Of a DNA stretch of 64,000 nucleotides, positions 10,606 to 36,032 are shown piece after piece; the stretch's first letter is position 1, and each line of letters starts with the position of its first letter. This DNA comes from Neelides folsomi. Taxonomy: Eukaryota > Arthropoda > Collembola > Neelipleona > Neelidae. The notes under the pieces were generated by a model. It saw only the letters and a list, made by a program, of their open reading frames with translations, was not told where the DNA came from and made no database searches. Location: NCBI GenBank assembly GCA_034687125.1, contig JAQGBZ010000005.1, positions 186,001 through 250,000 of the forward strand. Reading direction: 5' to 3'. Position numbers and translations under genes: made by a program.

Positions 10606-12197
10606 TCAATCAACTGCAATTTTGGCTGATTTTCCTCCTGGATTCATGAAGAGAAGAAGAGCAACTCCACCCATGACATAACCAGTCCAATTGTATCCTC
10701 CTTTCTCTTCCTACAATTAACAAATTAATAAAATAACACACTTATAACTGTAATTAATTTTAATTAGAAATTTTTAATAATAATTAAATTAATAATTAAA
10801 TTTATTACCTTCAACTCCATATTCTTCTGATTCAACTGATTGAAGAAATTCTTTGTCTCCATTTCTCTCTCAAAGTCCTGGATGAGAATTCTTTCTCCTC
10901 CCTTTCCATCAATTCTCTCTCGTCGCTCTGCATTGACTTGTCGAGAAACTCGGCGGTTTTCCTTCTCGAAAATTCTATCTTGAGGAATTCGAACATCTCG
11001 CGAAGTCACCTTTGAGTCAAGACGAACTCGGTCAAGATCTTCTTTCGAGATTCTCCTCGTGTTTTCACGAACCTCAGGAACAACTCGTCGCTCAGCAGAG
11101 CGGAAATCCTCACGAGAGGCAATTCGTCGTTCATCTCTCGTTTCTCTTGAAACTCGTCGACTTTCTCCACGAACTTCTTGAGATCTTCTTCGCTCAGCTA
11201 CTCGTCTCTCTTCAGATCGAACCTCACGATCTCGAACTTCCGACCTTGATCGGCTCTCTCGGATATTACGGCTTCGTTCTTCAGATCGAACCTCACGACC
11301 ACGAACCTCAGATCTTGAACGTTCCTGGACATTACGGCTTCGCTCTTCTGATCGAACTTCACGACCACGAACCTCAGATCTTGATCGGCTTTCTCTCGCA
11401 GCAACAGTTCTCCTTTCCTCAGACAATCGAGACAAGCTTCGTCGGTCTGAATTAATTTCTCGTCGGTCTTCATTAGGGATGGATCGTGTTGATCGGACAA
11501 GTCTTCGGTCTTCGTTTCTTGTTTCTCTTCTTTCGGAAACATCCCGAACTCTTTTCTCCGGAATCTCACGGACTCTTCTCTCAGGAACATCTCGGACTCT
11601 TCTCTCAGAATTGTCTCGGACTCTCCGCTCGGAATTATCTCGGACGCGTCTCTCAGGAACATCTCTGATCCGTTCGTTTCTCTCCTCCCGTACAAAACGC
11701 TCACGTTGGAGTCGTTCAGGTGTTTGACGTGCAACCCGCCGTTCCTCACGAACTTCTCTCGTCACTCGTCGTTCATTTTCTCTTGAAATTCGTCGACTAT
11801 CGATTTCCCTCCTCTCTCCTTCGTTCCTGACCTCACTCTTTACATTCCTCACTTCTCGGTTGACTCGCTCCACTCGGCGTTGATCTTCCACACGAATTTC
11901 CCTCCCAACTCGGCGGGTCTCAGAAATCCGCCGTTCTTCAATTCGGCGCGAATCCTCTCGGTTGATATTCCTCGTCGAGGTTTCAACCCTCTCCTGATCT
12001 TGGACGATCCGTCGGGTCAAAATGTCATTCCTTTCTCGACCCAATTTCCCATCCGTCCTCACATTCCGATTCCATTCCCTTGTGAAAGAGTCAGAGTCGC
12101 TCCTCACACGGCTCTCCAACCGACGTGTCTCTAATGAGGAAACGGCGAGGATCGCTGCTGCTGAGACGATGAGAAGACCAAGGAGACAAAACTTCAT
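10606..12197 (-). CDS. Secreted Arg/Glu/Ser-repeat protein with C-terminal membrane-like segment
   Basis: Exons 12197-10809 and 10710-10606 (minus) give 497 residues. The start is the ATG opening MKFCLLGLLIVSAAAILA, a clear signal peptide. The next ~430 residues are dominated by short degenerate repeats such as ERRVRDNSERRVRDVPE and SRSEVRGREVRSEERSRN, so mostly Arg, Glu, Ser and Val. The second exon was missed by simple ORF reading. It supplies a short C-terminus with a hydrophobic run (GYNWTGYVMGGVALLLFMNP). I do not know the family. The protein is probably extracellular or in a secretory compartment, with charged repeats that could form a long helix or bind polyanions; that is inference. 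A TATA box sits upstream at 12253-12260, suggesting a strongly, perhaps tissue-specifically, transcribed gene. Long antisense ORFs here are composition shadows. Confidence 0.78.
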
Positions 12198-12252
12198 CTC
12201 CACAAGAGTCAGCTCTCAATTTTGTATTGAGCTCAACAAGAGTTCCAGCTCG

Positions 12253-13611: not shown

Positions 13612-16600
13612 TTAATCCCATTCGTCCACAATTTCCTTTTCTGATTTGGAAGGCTCCATTTTTGGCGTGTTCGGATACATTGGAGTTTTCCTTCTCGGCA
13701 ATTCTTTATTTGGCAAATTGAGTACATTGAAAGGATTATGTCCTTGTCCTCGTTTGATCCCACCAACAACACTTCCAGTCTCAGTTTTTTCTTCAATTAA
13801 AATAATTATACCCAACAAAAATAAATATTATGAAATTTAAAATAAAAAAACTTACGGATAAAAACACTTGGCGCTGAAATTGCCAGAGTAGGACCGGGAG
13901 TTATTGCAATAATCGGAGTTTTTCTATCATATGGAATTTGTCCAGCCGCAGGAGTTCTTTGAGCAACCATACTTACAGATGTTGGTGGAAGTCGTCTAAG
14001 CCTCGTAACATCAGACGCTGCACTTCTAATTGAAAATCCTCCCGGGCTTCTATGTCCGAAACTGAGGACACTGGTCGCACCCATTGTTGAGTTTGGTGTT
14101 GCCTCAACGGCACTTCCAATCCTTACATTCGGCGGTGGTTCCAAGTAATGTATTTTGAAGTAGTCAAGCAAAAGAACGAGACTTCCAAATGTCCGTCCCC
14201 TATATCTGAGTCCATTGAGAGTCAAAGTGATGTATTCATGAAATATTTTCCTATTTGGAAGATAAGAGAGGAAAAATCTCCCTCGATATTCCCATGATGG
14301 ACAAATGACATAATGGATCTTGTGTAAATTCTTCTCTTGTTCTGATCTCAAATAATTTTCAATAAGATGCCGTTCACCTTTCCCTAAAACTTGATAATAT
14401 TTGTAGTTGATGAGCTCTCGAGCAAAACCCGCCATTGGATGAACAAATCGAGCAATGATTTCATCTAAATCTTCATATTCCTCATCTTCAATCCAAAGAG
14501 ATCGACCAATAGAAAAAGCATTTTCTTTCTTCATCTCTTTCACATTCACATGTTGAATGATTTTGTCTGTCACTTTCCAACTCACAGTTAAATTGTTAGG
14601 ACCCTATGAATCAAATAATATCATTAAAAAATAACTAATCATTGACCCAAATGACAATCATTACAATTATGAAATTAGAATTATTATTAAATTAAATTAA
14701 ATGTGTCTAATTAATGTATCTAATATAATTAAAATAATGTTTTATTGGGAATTAAATAAATTCAATTACTTTGCTCGACGGTCTTATAATAGATTCCCCT
14801 TGATCCATCACAGCCATTATTCTCTCCGACTCCTCATAAGAAAGATTATGAAACGATGGATGAGTAATAGCTCTCTTCACATATGACACTTTGGCCTTCT
14901 TTTCCATTCCAAGCTTTTCAAGTTCCAAATCCAATTTCTCAGCAGTTTCATCAAAATATGGATCTTTGTCGATTTTGAACTTACACTCAATATCAAGCAA
15001 TGAAGTGGAATTGCTCTCACAACAAACCATGTAATTGTCCAAGTTCACATCCTTCACTCGACAAATGATCAATTGACCAATTTTGACGCGATCCCATGGA
15101 TTTTGAACTTCTTTGTCAGAGAGCTTATGGATTAGAATCATTCCACTCATTTCGTTTTCCAATTTAATTCTCACAGCAAAAGCTTTCCCAGGGCATTCGT
15201 TCTTATCAAAATGTTCCCAGATTTCCGGAGCACCGGAGAAACCCGAAAGGAAACAATTCCCACAATACCAATCTGTGTCACTTCTCCGTTTCGGATCATC
15301 TTCCAATGATTCCCCTTCTTTCTTCTTTTTATAAATTAAGTCGACCACATATGCTAAAAACAAGTCAATTTCATTGAAATTTTAAAATCTATGATATATT
15401 TTAAAAATAATTAAAGTTAAAAAGATTCGATAAAAATTCATTAAAGTAATGATTAACATTAAAGTATTAATTTATATATAAAGTTAACCTCGAACAAGTT
15501 TTCCTGCATACAACGAAGTGGGAGTTTCCTTTGTAATAATTTTGAACAATTCCTGAGGAGTTGGAGATTTGTATGGTGCTCTAACTTCCTTGAAACGATG
15601 AATAAGTTCATAGCGAATATCCTGCAAAGTGACCCTCTTCGATCCAAATCCCTGTCGTTGTAATTCAGCAGCAAATGCATCAAGATCCAAATCATTAAGT
15701 GTCCCAGGATCTTCAAGAATTTCATCAAGAGCTCTTGAAGGTTCAATTTCATCATCATCATCATCATATTCCAAAGCATCAACGGCCATCTTCCTCGCCC
15801 AGTCATAAGTCTCAGGATGAATTCTTGTAGAGTCCAAAGGCTCATTATAAATTTCAGAATCTTCTGATCCTTCGAGCACAATCTTAATGAATCCAGAACA
15901 ATTGACAAATACAATTGGACCCATATGAGCTTTCGTAATGAGTAACGCTCGGTTTTCCACTTTGTAATTTAGAGCTTGAAAGGTTCGTAAAATGTATCTT
16001 GCTTTCCGAGGCCCAAGACCCGAAACATAATTAAGGAGTGTGGCAATCCTTGGGGTTCTCAAAGCATCATTTATATTTACTCCAACACCTCCTACCCAAT
16101 CAGTCATCACACCATTGAAAAGATCAAGAAGTTCTTCAGAGTTCACATGTTCCTAAAAATTCAAAATTGATATTAGTATCATCAATATTAATCATCAATA
16201 TTAAGGAATTTGAAAATTCATTTTTTTCAACTTAAATTCAACATTAAATTCAACTTAAAACAAAATATTCAAGTTAATTATTATTACCAATTAATAAATT
16301 GGTAATATTAATTAACTAATTAATACGTAATCTATTATAAATTTACCTGCATTGGATGAAATTTAACGCAAAGAAGTTCATCATCACGACTCGCAAGCTG
16401 AGCAATTTCCAACAAAGGATTTTGAATTCTCCGTCCAAGTGAAACGGCTTCTTTGAGTAAAGCAGGAAATTCTTTGAATTCATCAAACTTGTTCGAATTT
16501 CCAATCACTCTTGAAATATCCGAGTCCATAATTTCCACCCCAATTTTAGGAAATCCCTTTTCATTCATTAATTCTTCCGTGATGGCCAAAATATCTTTTC

Positions 16601-19600
16601 TTAACTTCAAAGCCTCATTCGAATCTCCTCCAATGACAATTACATGAGGTTTGTGGGCTTCAATGAAGCGTTTGACGTTCTTCATGTCCTTCTTTTTCCC
16701 ATGACGAAATTCCTCAATTCTGGAATTGATGCTTTTCAATAAATGGTTGAGTCGGAGGAAAGCAGCGGGTTCGCCGTCAGGTTGAAGACAACAAACAAAA
16801 GAGGCCGAGAGCGGGTCAAGACCATAAGCTACAGAAACGACTCGGACTCCTTTAGAACAATCCCACACTTTGTCTTTTCGAATGTCTTCTTCTTTTGGGA
16901 GATATGGAGCAGGCTAAAAAGTTAATAAGTTACAAATAAATCTCAATATAAAAATTAAATAAAATTCTAATTTTAAAGTAAAAAAATGTTATACCGAAAC
17001 ACATTTAACAAATTGAGCTCTGCATCTCAATAGAACGAAATCTTTTGCCTCACGAAGCAATTTTGTTCGCATTTCCTTCTGAAACGCCGGGACCAATTGT
17101 TTCACATATGCTTCCGTCACGGCTCTTCCCCTCAACTCATTCCATTCAAGAGCATCTTTGTAATACTCGTCCTGAAATTAATATAAGGCCCAATTAGGAC
17201 AATTAGTCAAAGTAATACCTTATTATACTTAGTCATAATTTTACAAATATTTGTATGTAATGAAGATAAAATAATTATCGACATTTAAAAAAACTTTACT
17301 CTAAAAAAGAGATCCTTCATTTCTTCCAAAAAAGTCGCCTTTTCTCTTCCTTTCAAATTTTCTCCAATGGTCAACACAATCAATTTGTTCTCTTCAGCAA
17401 TCACATATTTGAGAAATTCGTCCTTTTTTAACAAAGTCACTGGCTTGTTTGTTAAATACTTCACCCTATTTGAAAAAAGATAATATGATATTTAATAAAC
17501 TTGTCAAATTAATTTATTTTTAACCAACTCAATGTCAGCATTTAAATAATGCCTGAAATCTCTTAAAATAAATTCCGATAATTTCTAATAATTTTGATTT
17601 AAATTAAATTTATTATAGTTTATGTACAATTCGTTAAGCAAGACGTTTGTACCTATATAATATTAAAACACAAAAATAAAATAACATTACTTGAAAAGCG
17701 GTGAAGTTTCATCAATTTCCCTTCTTCCTTTCGGAGTTGGGCGGATGGAAAATGTGGCTCTGTTAAAAAACTCTTCTCTCAACGTTTGTCTCACCAGTGG
17801 CTCCGCGCTCAATCGAGTTCCAAGAACATAAACGGCCGAAGTCAACACAGTTTCAACAGTTGGTGAAAGACTGAAAGAACAAACACAAATAATATAAATT
17901 TCAAATAAAATGAAAGATTAAATTATCAATGGCATAATTTACTACGGAGAAATGTAAGTCTCAGCAATTTGCATTGGTCCCATGTTGTATTGGACAACTT
18001 CATTCTTCTGATATCCGTTCTTCAAATTCTCCCCATACTCTGCAGAAGACAATCCGAATTTACTCACAATAGAATTGAGACTCAATTTCCTAGTGCAAAA
18101 TGCATAAGGACCAAATCCAGCCTTCATTTTCTTTGACCAAAACAATCCTTCATCAAATTGTTCTCCTGTTTTCTTATGCAAGTACAATTTCACAGGCTCA
18201 ACAAAATCAGAATAGTTGATGTTGAAAAGGATATTGAAATCTTCAAGTTCCTCAGTAGATTTGATATTAAGGATCATTTTCAAATCCTCGTCAGTAATCG
18301 GCCGGAAATCGGGTTGCTTTATTTCGACTCTCGCAGAATTATCAATCATCTCTTGAGTTGTGTATTTCATGAAAACGCTCTTGGTCTCATCGTCGTTTTC
18401 TTTGTCATCAGTCTAAACATTTAATAGTAATAGAATAAATTAAATATAAATATATTTAATCAATTAAAAAATTAATCAAAATTAAATAATGAAAACAAGA
18501 AGAGAACCTTAGTAAGAAAGTCGTGGTATTCTTTGACATGGAAAAACAACATGTACAACTTTTCAACTCTCTTCTTTAATTGACAAAACTTTCCATCCAG
18601 ATTGTAAATGTCCCATAAGTCTTCAGTGAGCAAACCCTTTTCATCATCACGAATTTCTTGTTCCAAGCCTTTACAATCTCCTGAACCGATCAACTCCTTC
18701 CGATAAGCAAAAATGAAAGGAATGTCCAAATTCAGATTTTTGATGCATTCGAGAACATTACGAATCTTCTCAAGTTTCATTTTACGTGAAGCTGTTAATA
18801 AATTAAATGAGTGATCAATGGTCATCAATTATTGACAAATCTACTAATTAACTATTAATTAATTTATTAGATAATTTTTATTTTAAAAATGATTCGGAAT
18901 AATATTAAATCAATTTTAAAATTAAAACAATTAAAATATTTAAAATAATACCGATTCTTCTTTGTTCTGATGTTATTTCAGGTTCGGCATTCTCATCGAC
19001 CTTTGGAGTATCTTCTCCATCCCATGGGTCCTGAATATTTGCAACTCCAATGTCAGATTTCGATTTTGATTCATCATCGTCTTCGAGGTTTATAATTGGG
19101 ATATCCTCTTCCCATAGATCAATCTCTTTCTCGACTGGTTTATCCTCTGGTGGTTTTTCTGGTGCGGAATCACTCCAAGATTCCTTCACGATCGATTCGC
19201 TCAACAGATCCGTCCTGATGTTAATTAGAGGCAAAGTATTTTCATAGGAATCTTTAACCACAGACTCGCTCAAAATATCGTTCCTAATGCTAATTAGCGG
19301 CAATGTTGGTTCGATCCACGATTCTTTCACGACCGATTCTGAATCAAGAACTTCATTTGCTTTTTGTTTAGGAACAGGCTCGATCTTTGGTTTTTCATTT
19401 TCGGAGATAATTGGTTTTTCATCCATTGGTTCATCAACACCAGAATCTTCGTCTTCTGCCATTTTATGTACATTCGTGGGCTTATCTTTTTTGACAGATT
19501 TATCATCTTTCTTAGCCGAAACCTTTGGTTTGTTATCAACAGACTCATCCAAGTGCCAAGAATCTTTTTGTGGAGATTCGACATTTTTCTTCGCTGGTTC

Positions 19601-21312
19601 AGGTTCGTCCCAGGAATCTTGTGACTTTTCAGCGTTTTTCTTTACTGGTTCGGATTCGTCCCATGAATCTTCTTGCAACTTTTCAGCATTTTTCTTTGCT
19701 GGTTCGGGTTCGTCCCATGACTCTTCTTGTGGCTTTTCAGCATTTTTCTTAACGGCAACATCAGGAACGTCCCACGAATCAACTTTAAAACTTTCAACAA
19801 CAGGATCATCCCAAGAATATTCATTCGGTTTATTAGCCTTTTTTTCTTCTGGTTGATCCCATGAATCTTCCTTCACCTTATTTTGAGTCTTTTCTTCAGG
19901 TATGTCCCATGATTCTTCCACTTGACCAGCCTTTTTATCTGATTCGTCCCAATCAGGTTTATTCCACCCGCAACCTTTAGGCGATGATGACACTGCCTGA
20001 AACATTTTAGTCAGTTGTTTTTTAGACTGTGGATCTTTTTTATTTTTGGTCTCAAGAATGTCAAGAATCCACTCGGCTTCTTCGTCCAACTCCATGTCAG
20101 TCGCTCTTTGAATGGGAACTGGACGCAATTGGAATCTTTCTGGAATGTCGTTCATCTTAATTTGAACTTCTTCCTCAGTAAGTCCCATACTTTGAATCTC
20201 ACTTGGTTCGTAAATCTCATGAATTGGTTTTCGATTCTTCTTTCGCTTCTTTTCTTTCTTTCGAAAAATGCTAAAAAATGAATTGAATTATTAGAAAAGA
20301 AGCATAAATATAATGAAATACAGAATATTTATTTATTAAAATGAACCTCGCAGCCTCATCGCTTTCTTCATCCTCATCATCTTCATCATGAGGGACTATA
20401 GCTTCGCCTGTGTTGATCTTTCGGATCTCATCATAGTCGAAATCAATCCCAAAAACATCTTGTGCTTCTTTGAGATATGGATTTGAGCTTTTGCTCCGCC
20501 GTTTTTGTCGGGCCATTTTCAAAGGCATGTCATTGTCATCAACAATAAAGTCATCAGTCTCTGATTCGGACTCATCAGTTAAAAATTCTCTTTCAGGGTG
20601 TAGCTTTGGCATTCTTCTTAAATCTTCTTCCTGCAAATTATTATATTTACAATGGATGATAACATGTTACAGAAGAGGAGCACAATTAAAATAATATTGT
20701 TTATATTTTACATTGTCTGATCCATCAAAAAGATCAATCGCAATGGCGTCCTTATCAGTCACTTTCTCCCCAGTTTCATCATCGGAATCCTCAGCTAGTT
20801 GCTTCACTCTTTTGAATTTCTGCGATTAAGATACAAAAATTAAATTCTTCGAATAAATAAAGTTCACTTCCCATCCATTACCTTTTTGACTCTAATTCCC
20901 CAATTTTCAGCGAGAAGTTCGTAGTCGTCATCTTCGAGACGATCATCCTCGTCATCTTCGAAGCTTACTCTCCGCTTTTTACTTTTAGACTTATCATCTT
21001 TTTCCGCGTCGCTATCCACCAGCATCTCGTCAAGAGAATCATCTTCGGCGATTGCCATATCTTTAAAATTTAAAAATATTACAATCGAATTACTCAACCG
21101 AGGCTCATAAATGAATTAATACAAAGATCAAATTAAGAATAACATTAAATGACACATATCAGTCATATCACACAGTGAATAAATTATCAAATTATAAAGC
21201 ATGAATTTCATTTACCATCTTCGTTTTCTTCATCCATTGATTCATGATCTTTTTTGTCCTTTCCGTCTTTTACTCTTCGGACAGAGTCCAGCTCTTGTGC
21301 CTCAAAATCCAT
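13612..21312 (-). CDS. SUPT6H: Transcription elongation factor SPT6 with Trp-rich repeat insert
   Basis: Nuclear histone chaperone and RNA polymerase II elongation factor. Fifteen exons (minus): 21312-21216, 21060-20882, 20819-20712, 20630-20347, 20270-18952, 18791-18508, 18412-17946, 17870-17691, 17465-17300, 17171-16995, 16913-16347, 16152-15489, 15353-14770, 14603-13856, 13790-13612. They sum to exactly 2000 codons plus a stop. Order: acidic N-terminus, conserved LDEEAEW block (~285), helical core (PFIFAYRKE), YqgF-like domain (~1090-1275), HhH repeats (GLGPRKARYILRTF), DLDLDAFAAELQRQGFGSK block, S1-like domain, then tandem SH2 (RPSSKGPNNLTVSW; YITLTLNGLRYRGRTFGSL). The C-terminus is short, ending VDEWD. 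Odd: residues ~320-660 are an acidic insert with about a dozen Trp units (SWDEPEPAKKN tandem copies, also GCGWNKPDW). The expected animal sequence after AEW is missing there. Confidence 0.95.
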
Positions 21313-35348: not shown

Positions 35349-36032
35349 TCAGTATTTTATCCCTTGGATGCCTGCAGCCAACGCAATTGCCGCCTCTGAG
35401 ACATCCTTAGCGAACTATTATACAAAAATTAAAATGAATTAATTAATTAACTAACCAACATTTTTTATATTTGTTAGTAAAATTGTTTAAAGTTTTGTTA
35501 ATAAATCCATTTATTGCTGCTACATGAATATTTATTATTCTACTAATTATTGTATCGGGTAATCCCTACTCCATTAATTAATTTCTTCTGGTTTTTGCCA
35601 CTCTTGCCCTCACCATTAACTAGTTAATGCCATTATATATATAAATTACTATTTCAATTAAAATATAATGGGCAATCAATGTATGAAATGATAAAAATAA
35701 TTACTGTTTGAAGGCTCATAACGAGAATTTCCCTTTTGTCTCGTCCTTCGTCCTCTTCCTTAGCCTCATTTGCAGAAGTGTCAACTTTCTCACTTAATCC
35801 TCTGAACTCTTGCTTATTTTGCAGAAGAGTGTCAACTTTCTCACTTAATCCTCTGAACTCTTGCTTAAGTTCCATCAGAGTTTCCCTCAGCTCTTTTAAC
35901 GTCCCAATTAATTCCAATTCCGCTGCCTAATAAAAATCAATTTATTAATATGATAAACAAATTAACAAATTGACACATTTAATAACGAATATTTTTATTA
36001 TTTAATACTAAATATTTAATCTTTTTTACCAT
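35349..36032 (-). CDS. Small coiled-coil protein with duplicated 17-residue unit
   Basis: Minus strand exons: 36032-36030 (the ATG alone, followed at once by GTAAAA), 35926-35705 and 35414-35349; 96 residues. The chain begins M-AAELELIGTLKELRETLM and shows heptad-like Leu spacing. It carries two copies of EFRGLSEKVDT spaced 17 residues apart, then an acidic segment, and ends with FAKDVSEAAIALAAGIQGIK. No signal peptide or domain known to me. The ATG-only first exon is inferred because no other in-frame ATG precedes exon 2; an internal Met at codon 14 is an alternative start. It lies on the opposite strand within the gap of the broken PREP copy. Confidence 0.52.
35778..35867. repeat. Tandem duplication, 39-bp identical blocks 51 bp apart
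   Basis: Blocks 35778-35816 and 35829-35867 are identical. The 51-base period equals 17 codons of the coiled-coil gene here, so the frame is kept. Confidence 0.93.

Follow-up and report, generated by a model that had tools for sequence, protein, structure and literature searches.

In plants, the elongation factor SPT6L carries an Argonaute (AGO) hook, whereas animals and other organisms are described as having only a canonical, hook-free SPT6 (PMC10991848, in the part of its text available here). According to the same text, the tryptophan (Trp) motifs of AGO hooks are mostly GW and WG, the criterion applied is at least three motifs with a Wsearch score of at least 6, and two or three Trp are enough for one AGO. 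The SPT6 of Physarum contains five WG/GW repeats (PMC9864664, in part). A link between Spt6 and small RNA is also described in Tetrahymena, in which Ema2 enhances Spt6 SUMOylation and is needed for long noncoding RNA (lncRNA) transcription in small-RNA-directed DNA elimination; SUMOylation of Spt6 itself is dispensable for lncRNA transcription, as a section title of that paper puts it (PMC10830130, in part). Finally, residues W99 and D100 of Bombyx Gtsf1L dock into a hydrophobic pocket of the extended Tudor domain of Vreteno, and the motif also enhances the binding of Ago3 (PMC10711660, in part). Here we describe an SPT6 gene in a stretch of 64,000 nucleotides from the collembolan Neelides folsomi (contig JAQGBZ010000005.1, positions 186,001 to 250,000; hereafter the window) that encodes a Trp-rich insert with tandem [DE]SWDxP units. 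A second gene of the same genome, on contig C164, has the motif as well, and we regard this sharing as our principal new finding.

The hook of plant SPT6L is C-terminal, whereas the N. folsomi insert lies at the N-terminal edge of the HTH domain, is built on SWD rather than WG/GW and belongs to an animal lineage. What the two have in common is the host protein and a disordered segment rich in Trp (PMC10991848, in part). Physarum likewise provides Trp repeats in an SPT6 outside plants, but there the context is WG/GW, and the available portion of that account mentions no SWDxP array (PMC9864664). Canonical human SPT6 (PDB 6gmh/6ted) aligns with this protein in its core domains as well as in the acidic N-terminal region, but has a 33-residue linker where this SPT6 has a Trp segment of approximately 375 residues. 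By analogy, the binding mode closest to the Trp-Asp core among the literature compared is that of Gtsf1L, in which Trp is likewise followed by Asp within a disordered tail; Gtsf1L differs in having a single motif in its C-terminal tail, with Ile (I98) instead of Ser before the Trp and without a repeat. The features of the gene are as follows.

13806 to 21312, minus strand: SPT6 gene, with a minimum extent from its ATG (21312) to the tandem SH2, inclusive
21312-21216, 21060-20882, 20819-20712, 20630-20347 and 20270-18952, minus strand: SPT6 exons 1 to 5, with in-frame joins and GT/AG borders
18952 to 20270, minus strand: SPT6 exon 5, one open frame
18952 to 20065, minus strand: Trp-rich insert, residues 292-662, up to the end of exon 5, from the human SPT6 alignment, composition and Trp contexts
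18472 to 18828, minus strand: open frame that includes exon 6; this exon encodes the greater part of the SPT6 HTH, whose N-terminal edge the insert joins
19541 to 19927, minus strand: main array, Trp 344-461, with a spacing of 13-19 residues between its eight SW units, of which seven are SWD
19582 to 19750, minus strand: 54-base tandem repeat of 3.2 copies inside the main array, from Tandem Repeats Finder
19073 to 19342, minus strand: weaker second family of repeats, recognized by eye, in which SESVVKESWIEPTLPLISIRNDIL is accompanied by two copies that have diverged

The identity of the gene is supported by several comparisons. A conserved SPT6 piece used as query found this locus as the sole match in the genome assembly (G000, 75.1 Mb in 840 contigs), such that SPT6 is single-copy, and its best match in PDB is human SPT6 (E 4.2e-68). 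Five of seven SPT6 pieces matched Pfam (HTH_44, YqgF, HHH_7/9/3, S1 and SH2_2), with HTH_44, YqgF, HHH_7, HHH_9, S1 and SH2_2 above the cut-off; the remaining two pieces, 17942-18412 and 20271-20666, had no Pfam match. Residues 16-292, that is, up to EEAEWIL, align with human residues 38-324 (domain i-Evalue 1.5e-41), and residues 668-751 align with human 358-426, a match that is weak when taken alone (i-Evalue 2.4). Between the aligned blocks there are 375 residues as against 33 in human SPT6, which amounts to a net gain of 342 residues. The first-pass annotation, which was made from the sequence of the window, had proposed that exon 5 departs from animal SPT6 for about 340 residues and that the protein then rejoins the SPT6 core, and both proposals hold: exon 6 matches positions 32-108 of the 117 in the Pfam HTH_44 profile (E 3.9e-12). 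The insert is thus encoded by exon 5 and borders the SPT6 HTH domain on its N-terminal side.

The insert comprises 371 amino acids, of which 14 are Trp, 97 are Asp or Glu and 56 are Lys or Arg, and it falls on the disordered side by charge-hydropathy. Its guanine-plus-cytosine (GC) content is 0.397, within the range of the five exons (0.397-0.436) and above that of the five introns (0.138-0.290). No stop codon interrupts the coding frame, as compared with 11 and 52 in the other two frames, and none of 200 mononucleotide shuffles of the insert left the frame open. These observations bear on the explanation that the array is a prediction artefact, intronic in reality or spliced out. The off-consensus donor of intron 4 (GTTCATT) speaks for such an artefact, and the exon-like GC content and the 371 codons without an in-frame stop speak against it; we find it barely credible. 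A scan of exon 5 for donor-like sites yielded two GTRAK sites and was dropped; because the pattern fits just one of the five real SPT6 donors, it is uninformative either way.

The Trp residues of the insert occur in a recurrent context. Ten of the 14 follow Ser, ten precede Asp or Glu and seven lie in SWD; Pro is found at +3 in eight, and Gly adjoins one. Neither 10 SW nor 7 SWD was reached by any of 10,000 composition shuffles of the insert. Nine consecutive Trp (330-461) are separated by gaps of 14, 16, 16, 13, 19, 18, 17 and 18 residues, an evenness equaled by one in 20,000 random placements. The Trp motifs quoted in the first-pass annotation are all found in the insert; four tandem units of about 18 residues is a fair reading of the 3.2 copies of the 54-base repeat. 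The 129-residue array contains 38 acidic and 19 basic residues, and its spacers are rich in Lys (AKKNAEK).

The genome was searched for SWDxP arrays in two ways, by exact patterns and by protein queries, two of each. Sequences coding for DSWDxP (Asp first, with Ser as TCN) occur 20 times genome-wide: 3 in SPT6, 11 in the C164 gene and 6 as single sites in frames of 21-54 amino acids, with none in the reversed-pattern control. The pattern for three WDxP units, at its allowed spacing, gave 13 overlapping matches, 4 in SPT6 and 9 in C164, and again none in the control. By this exact-pattern scan of the 75-Mb genome, three-unit WDxP arrays are present in two genes only. The SPT6 array used as a protein query matched SPT6 and C164 (E 2.9e-5 for C164). 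The second gene is placed as follows.

L025 3474-3725 and 3989-6148, plus strand: SAM/RGG protein of C164, 803 amino acids, two in-frame exons

Like the SPT6 insert, the C164 protein has tandem [DE]SWDxP units, and it differs in its 14-residue period, its RGG and SWEDRGG repeats, its SAM domain and its spacers, which show no significant likeness to those of SPT6. It contains 45 Trp, including 21 SWD and 13 SWE, and 6 of the 45 stand beside Gly. The SAM domain scores slightly below the cut-off of 23 bits for Pfam SAM_1 (22.4 bits, E 1.6e-4). In PDB its nearest chain is that of Sfmbt, a Polycomb protein (E 1.7e-5); five further matches have E values of 0.07-0.26. In 16 of the C164 SWD units the Ser codon is TCT or TCA, and in the other 5 it is AGT; the two codon groups are not joined by one silent step, which suggests that Ser beside Trp arose there more than once.

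Divergence among the units of the SPT6 array is uneven. In the seven SWD units, which were chosen by their core, the S-W-D codons have a proportion of nonsynonymous differences (pN) of 0.00 and of silent differences (pS) of 0.89, such that silent change is saturated, and the flanks (-9 to -3 and +4 to +7) have a pN of 0.54 and a pS of 0.57. In the first four units (Trp 344-389) flank pN is 0.62, yet Asp at +1 and Pro at +3 are present in all four. A less selected view is given by the ten SW units, since the +1 and +3 columns played no part in choosing them: Asp +1 and Pro +3 are each kept in seven, with pN of 0.34 and 0.36, as compared with 0.58 in the flanks. Within the gene the array therefore combines a conserved core with diverged spacers, as expected of short linear motifs, in units chosen by that core, and the spacers look unconstrained. 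This pattern among units of one gene suggests that the SWD core is under constraint. A search for related SPT6 in the viral and prokaryote collections confirmed none.

With moderate confidence, we propose that the insert is a multivalent array of short linear motifs, in which the SWD units would be weak docking sites for a shared nuclear partner with a Trp pocket. A flexible loop at the N-terminal HTH edge of SPT6 would have grown by tandem duplication into units of approximately [DE]SWDxP, one every 13-19 residues. Each SWD would offer a weak docking site to the Trp-pocket domain of the putative nuclear partner, and some eight sites would jointly grip that partner firmly and tether it to elongating RNA polymerase II. 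Given that the scans detected the same array in just one other gene, that of C164, the putative partner probably reads both, and our best guess is a nuclear reader of [DE]SWDxP common to the two proteins. SPT6 is highly conserved, and a long strip of motifs at its HTH would predict that elongating polymerase II has a specific partner.

Several observations weigh against this docking array. First, the pN of zero at the core is partly built in, because the units were picked for SW or SWD, and homogenization of tandem copies could equally hold the cores alike. Second, some flank columns are low too, namely +4 (pN 0.25) and +9 (pN 0.18) in the seven-unit set, and in the second repeat family of the insert Tyr replaces Trp in one of the three copies. 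Third, the C164 array used as a protein query found C164 alone and missed SPT6; the scans are thus insensitive to loose variants, and such arrays elsewhere could be missed. Fourth, the likeness between the spacers of SPT6 and C164 is not significant (29 of 500 shuffles scored at least as high as observed) and so does not establish common descent of the two arrays. Furthermore, the C164 protein may act in chromatin, a role to which its SAM domain is the one pointer.

The same data bear on the possibility that the insert is a neutral or nearly neutral expansion, in which slippage and unequal crossing-over lengthened a length-tolerant loop and left a motif without a partner. The array does contain a true tandem DNA repeat, the human SPT6 linker is short at this position, the spacers look unconstrained and further repeat-rich frames lie within the window. 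A neutral origin would have to account for the persistence of SWD despite saturated silent sites, even among units with unlike spacers (with the caveat of unit choice given above), and also for the two groups of Ser codons in the C164 array and for the finding of no third three-unit WDxP array. We regard such an expansion as possible but doubtful.

Returning to the docking array, the Ser residues of its units offer a route to regulation. Casein kinase 2 (CK2) recognizes S-x-x-[DE], and since six of the ten Ser of the SW units of the insert fit this pattern, phosphorylation may tune the binding. One could also suppose that phosphorylation is the function itself, with CK2 acting on the Ser before Trp in an acidic segment and thereby modulating the contact of SPT6 with Spn1/IWS1 or its histone binding. 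This explanation leaves the constant Trp and the even spacing unaccounted for, and the acidic residue at +3 from Ser is missing in four of the ten units. The region contacting Spn1 is encoded upstream in exon 4, outside the insert. Casein kinase II acting on the N-terminus of yeast Spt6 does enhance Spn1 binding (PMC12053661, in part). Overall, we judge phosphoregulation as the main role to be unlikely.

Another explanation starts from the acidic residues, Asp or Glu standing after ten of the 14 Trp in a protein that is a known histone chaperone. Motifs with aromatic anchors exist in histone chaperones, and the insert might accordingly be an aromatic-acidic array for histone binding that extends the N-terminal chaperone function of SPT6. 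The Lys-rich spacers do not make a plain acidic tract, and we consider a histone-binding array very unlikely.

The precedent of plant SPT6L raises the question of a true Argonaute or Piwi hook, in which the Trp would enter the pockets of a nuclear Argonaute and so couple elongation to small-RNA silencing. The first-pass annotation had favored a hook of this kind. The part of this proposal that stands is the architecture: isolated and evenly spaced Trp in an acidic, repetitive and disorder-like segment of an elongation factor, much as in SPT6L. The part that does not is the local context, given that AGO-hook motifs are mostly GW or WG and Gly is beside one of the 14 Trp here. The insert consequently falls outside the GW/WG family on this feature, although a hook-like mode of working is possible.

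Potential readers of a hook are present in the genome. A search for Piwi domains gave 27 matches at eight places on seven contigs. In PDB, the nearest proteins are Siwi and Piwi for C288, Piwi-like protein 2 for C213 (1-8500), Piwi for C34 and AGO2 for C26, and therefore three of the four loci so compared are nearest to Piwi proteins. By eye, C31, C101 and a second locus on C213 are Piwi-like, and C680 resembles a fragment of C26. No clear Ago1 of the microRNA type was seen among these Piwi-domain loci, in a search that may miss genes. In human AGO2, we take the Trp-pocket positions to be 587, 590, 591, 650, 653, 654, 659, 660, 694, 695 and 698. At these 11 assumed positions C26, the only Ago-clade locus compared, is identical to human AGO2 in four (590, 650, 653 and 698), which does not favor a true hook. 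Two loci elsewhere in the genome encode Gtsf-type CHHC zinc fingers (L058 on C540 and L059 on C10).

Published work points in both directions. Conservation of the Trp pockets is strong among metazoan AGOs, whereas in the PIWI clade these pockets vary greatly; binding of GW proteins by members of that clade is nevertheless covered by reports cited in the same source (PMC12477606, in part). That few Trp suffice for one AGO, as noted above for the plant precedent, would favor a hook, as would the W99A substitution within the W99-D100 pair of Gtsf1L, by which binding to Ago3 is weakened and that to Vreteno is lost (PMC10711660, in part). Genome searches with Pfam Ago_hook and RdRP gave no match; because the control genomes were silent too, the result does not demonstrate absence. 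A genome scan for WG arrays was too noisy to be of use, with 208 matches as compared with 50 in the reversed control. Among the matches listed from that scan is a frame on the minus strand of C51 (L075, C51:50600-52200) that carries the stretch WGEPEKVWSEPEKNWGEPERVWG, that is, WxEP repeats forming a WGEPEKVWSEPEK array, and the end of this frame corresponds to what we take to be the arthropod cuticle chitin-binding consensus. Its cuticle-like array argues against a hook, as it indicates that Trp arrays can arise in a protein not expected to meet Argonaute. Taken together, we find a true hook distinctly improbable.

A bolder extension of the docking array would combine it with small-RNA silencing. 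An animal SPT6 might have independently evolved a Gly-free Trp hook, [DE]SWDxP, which together with the Polycomb-type C164 protein would recruit a nuclear silencing factor of the Piwi or Tudor kind to elongating RNA polymerase II. We offer this scenario, which would parallel plant SPT6L with a different chemistry, as a long shot. Should a Piwi or Tudor protein turn out to be the partner, small-RNA silencing coupled to elongation would have arisen a second time. As animal SPT6 is described as hook-free, the analogy with plant SPT6L would be new (PMC10991848, in part). Among the matches listed from searches for SPT6 with Argonaute, hook, tryptophan, PIWI or piRNA, no title or abstract opening reported an array of Trp in the SPT6 of an animal.

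Other repeats were observed within the window. On the minus strand, positions 10764-12215 encode an Arg/Glu-rich repeat protein with a start resembling a signal peptide (MKFCLLGLLIVSAAAILA) and with tandem repeats of 24 and 66 bases. Also on the minus strand, a short coiled-coil-like frame at 35654-35926 contains a coding duplication of 17 residues (QEFRGLSEKVDT...). Elsewhere in the assembly, C742 (L056 and L057) is the mitochondrial contig, with 15,157 bases and a gene order that we take to be the ancestral one of arthropods.

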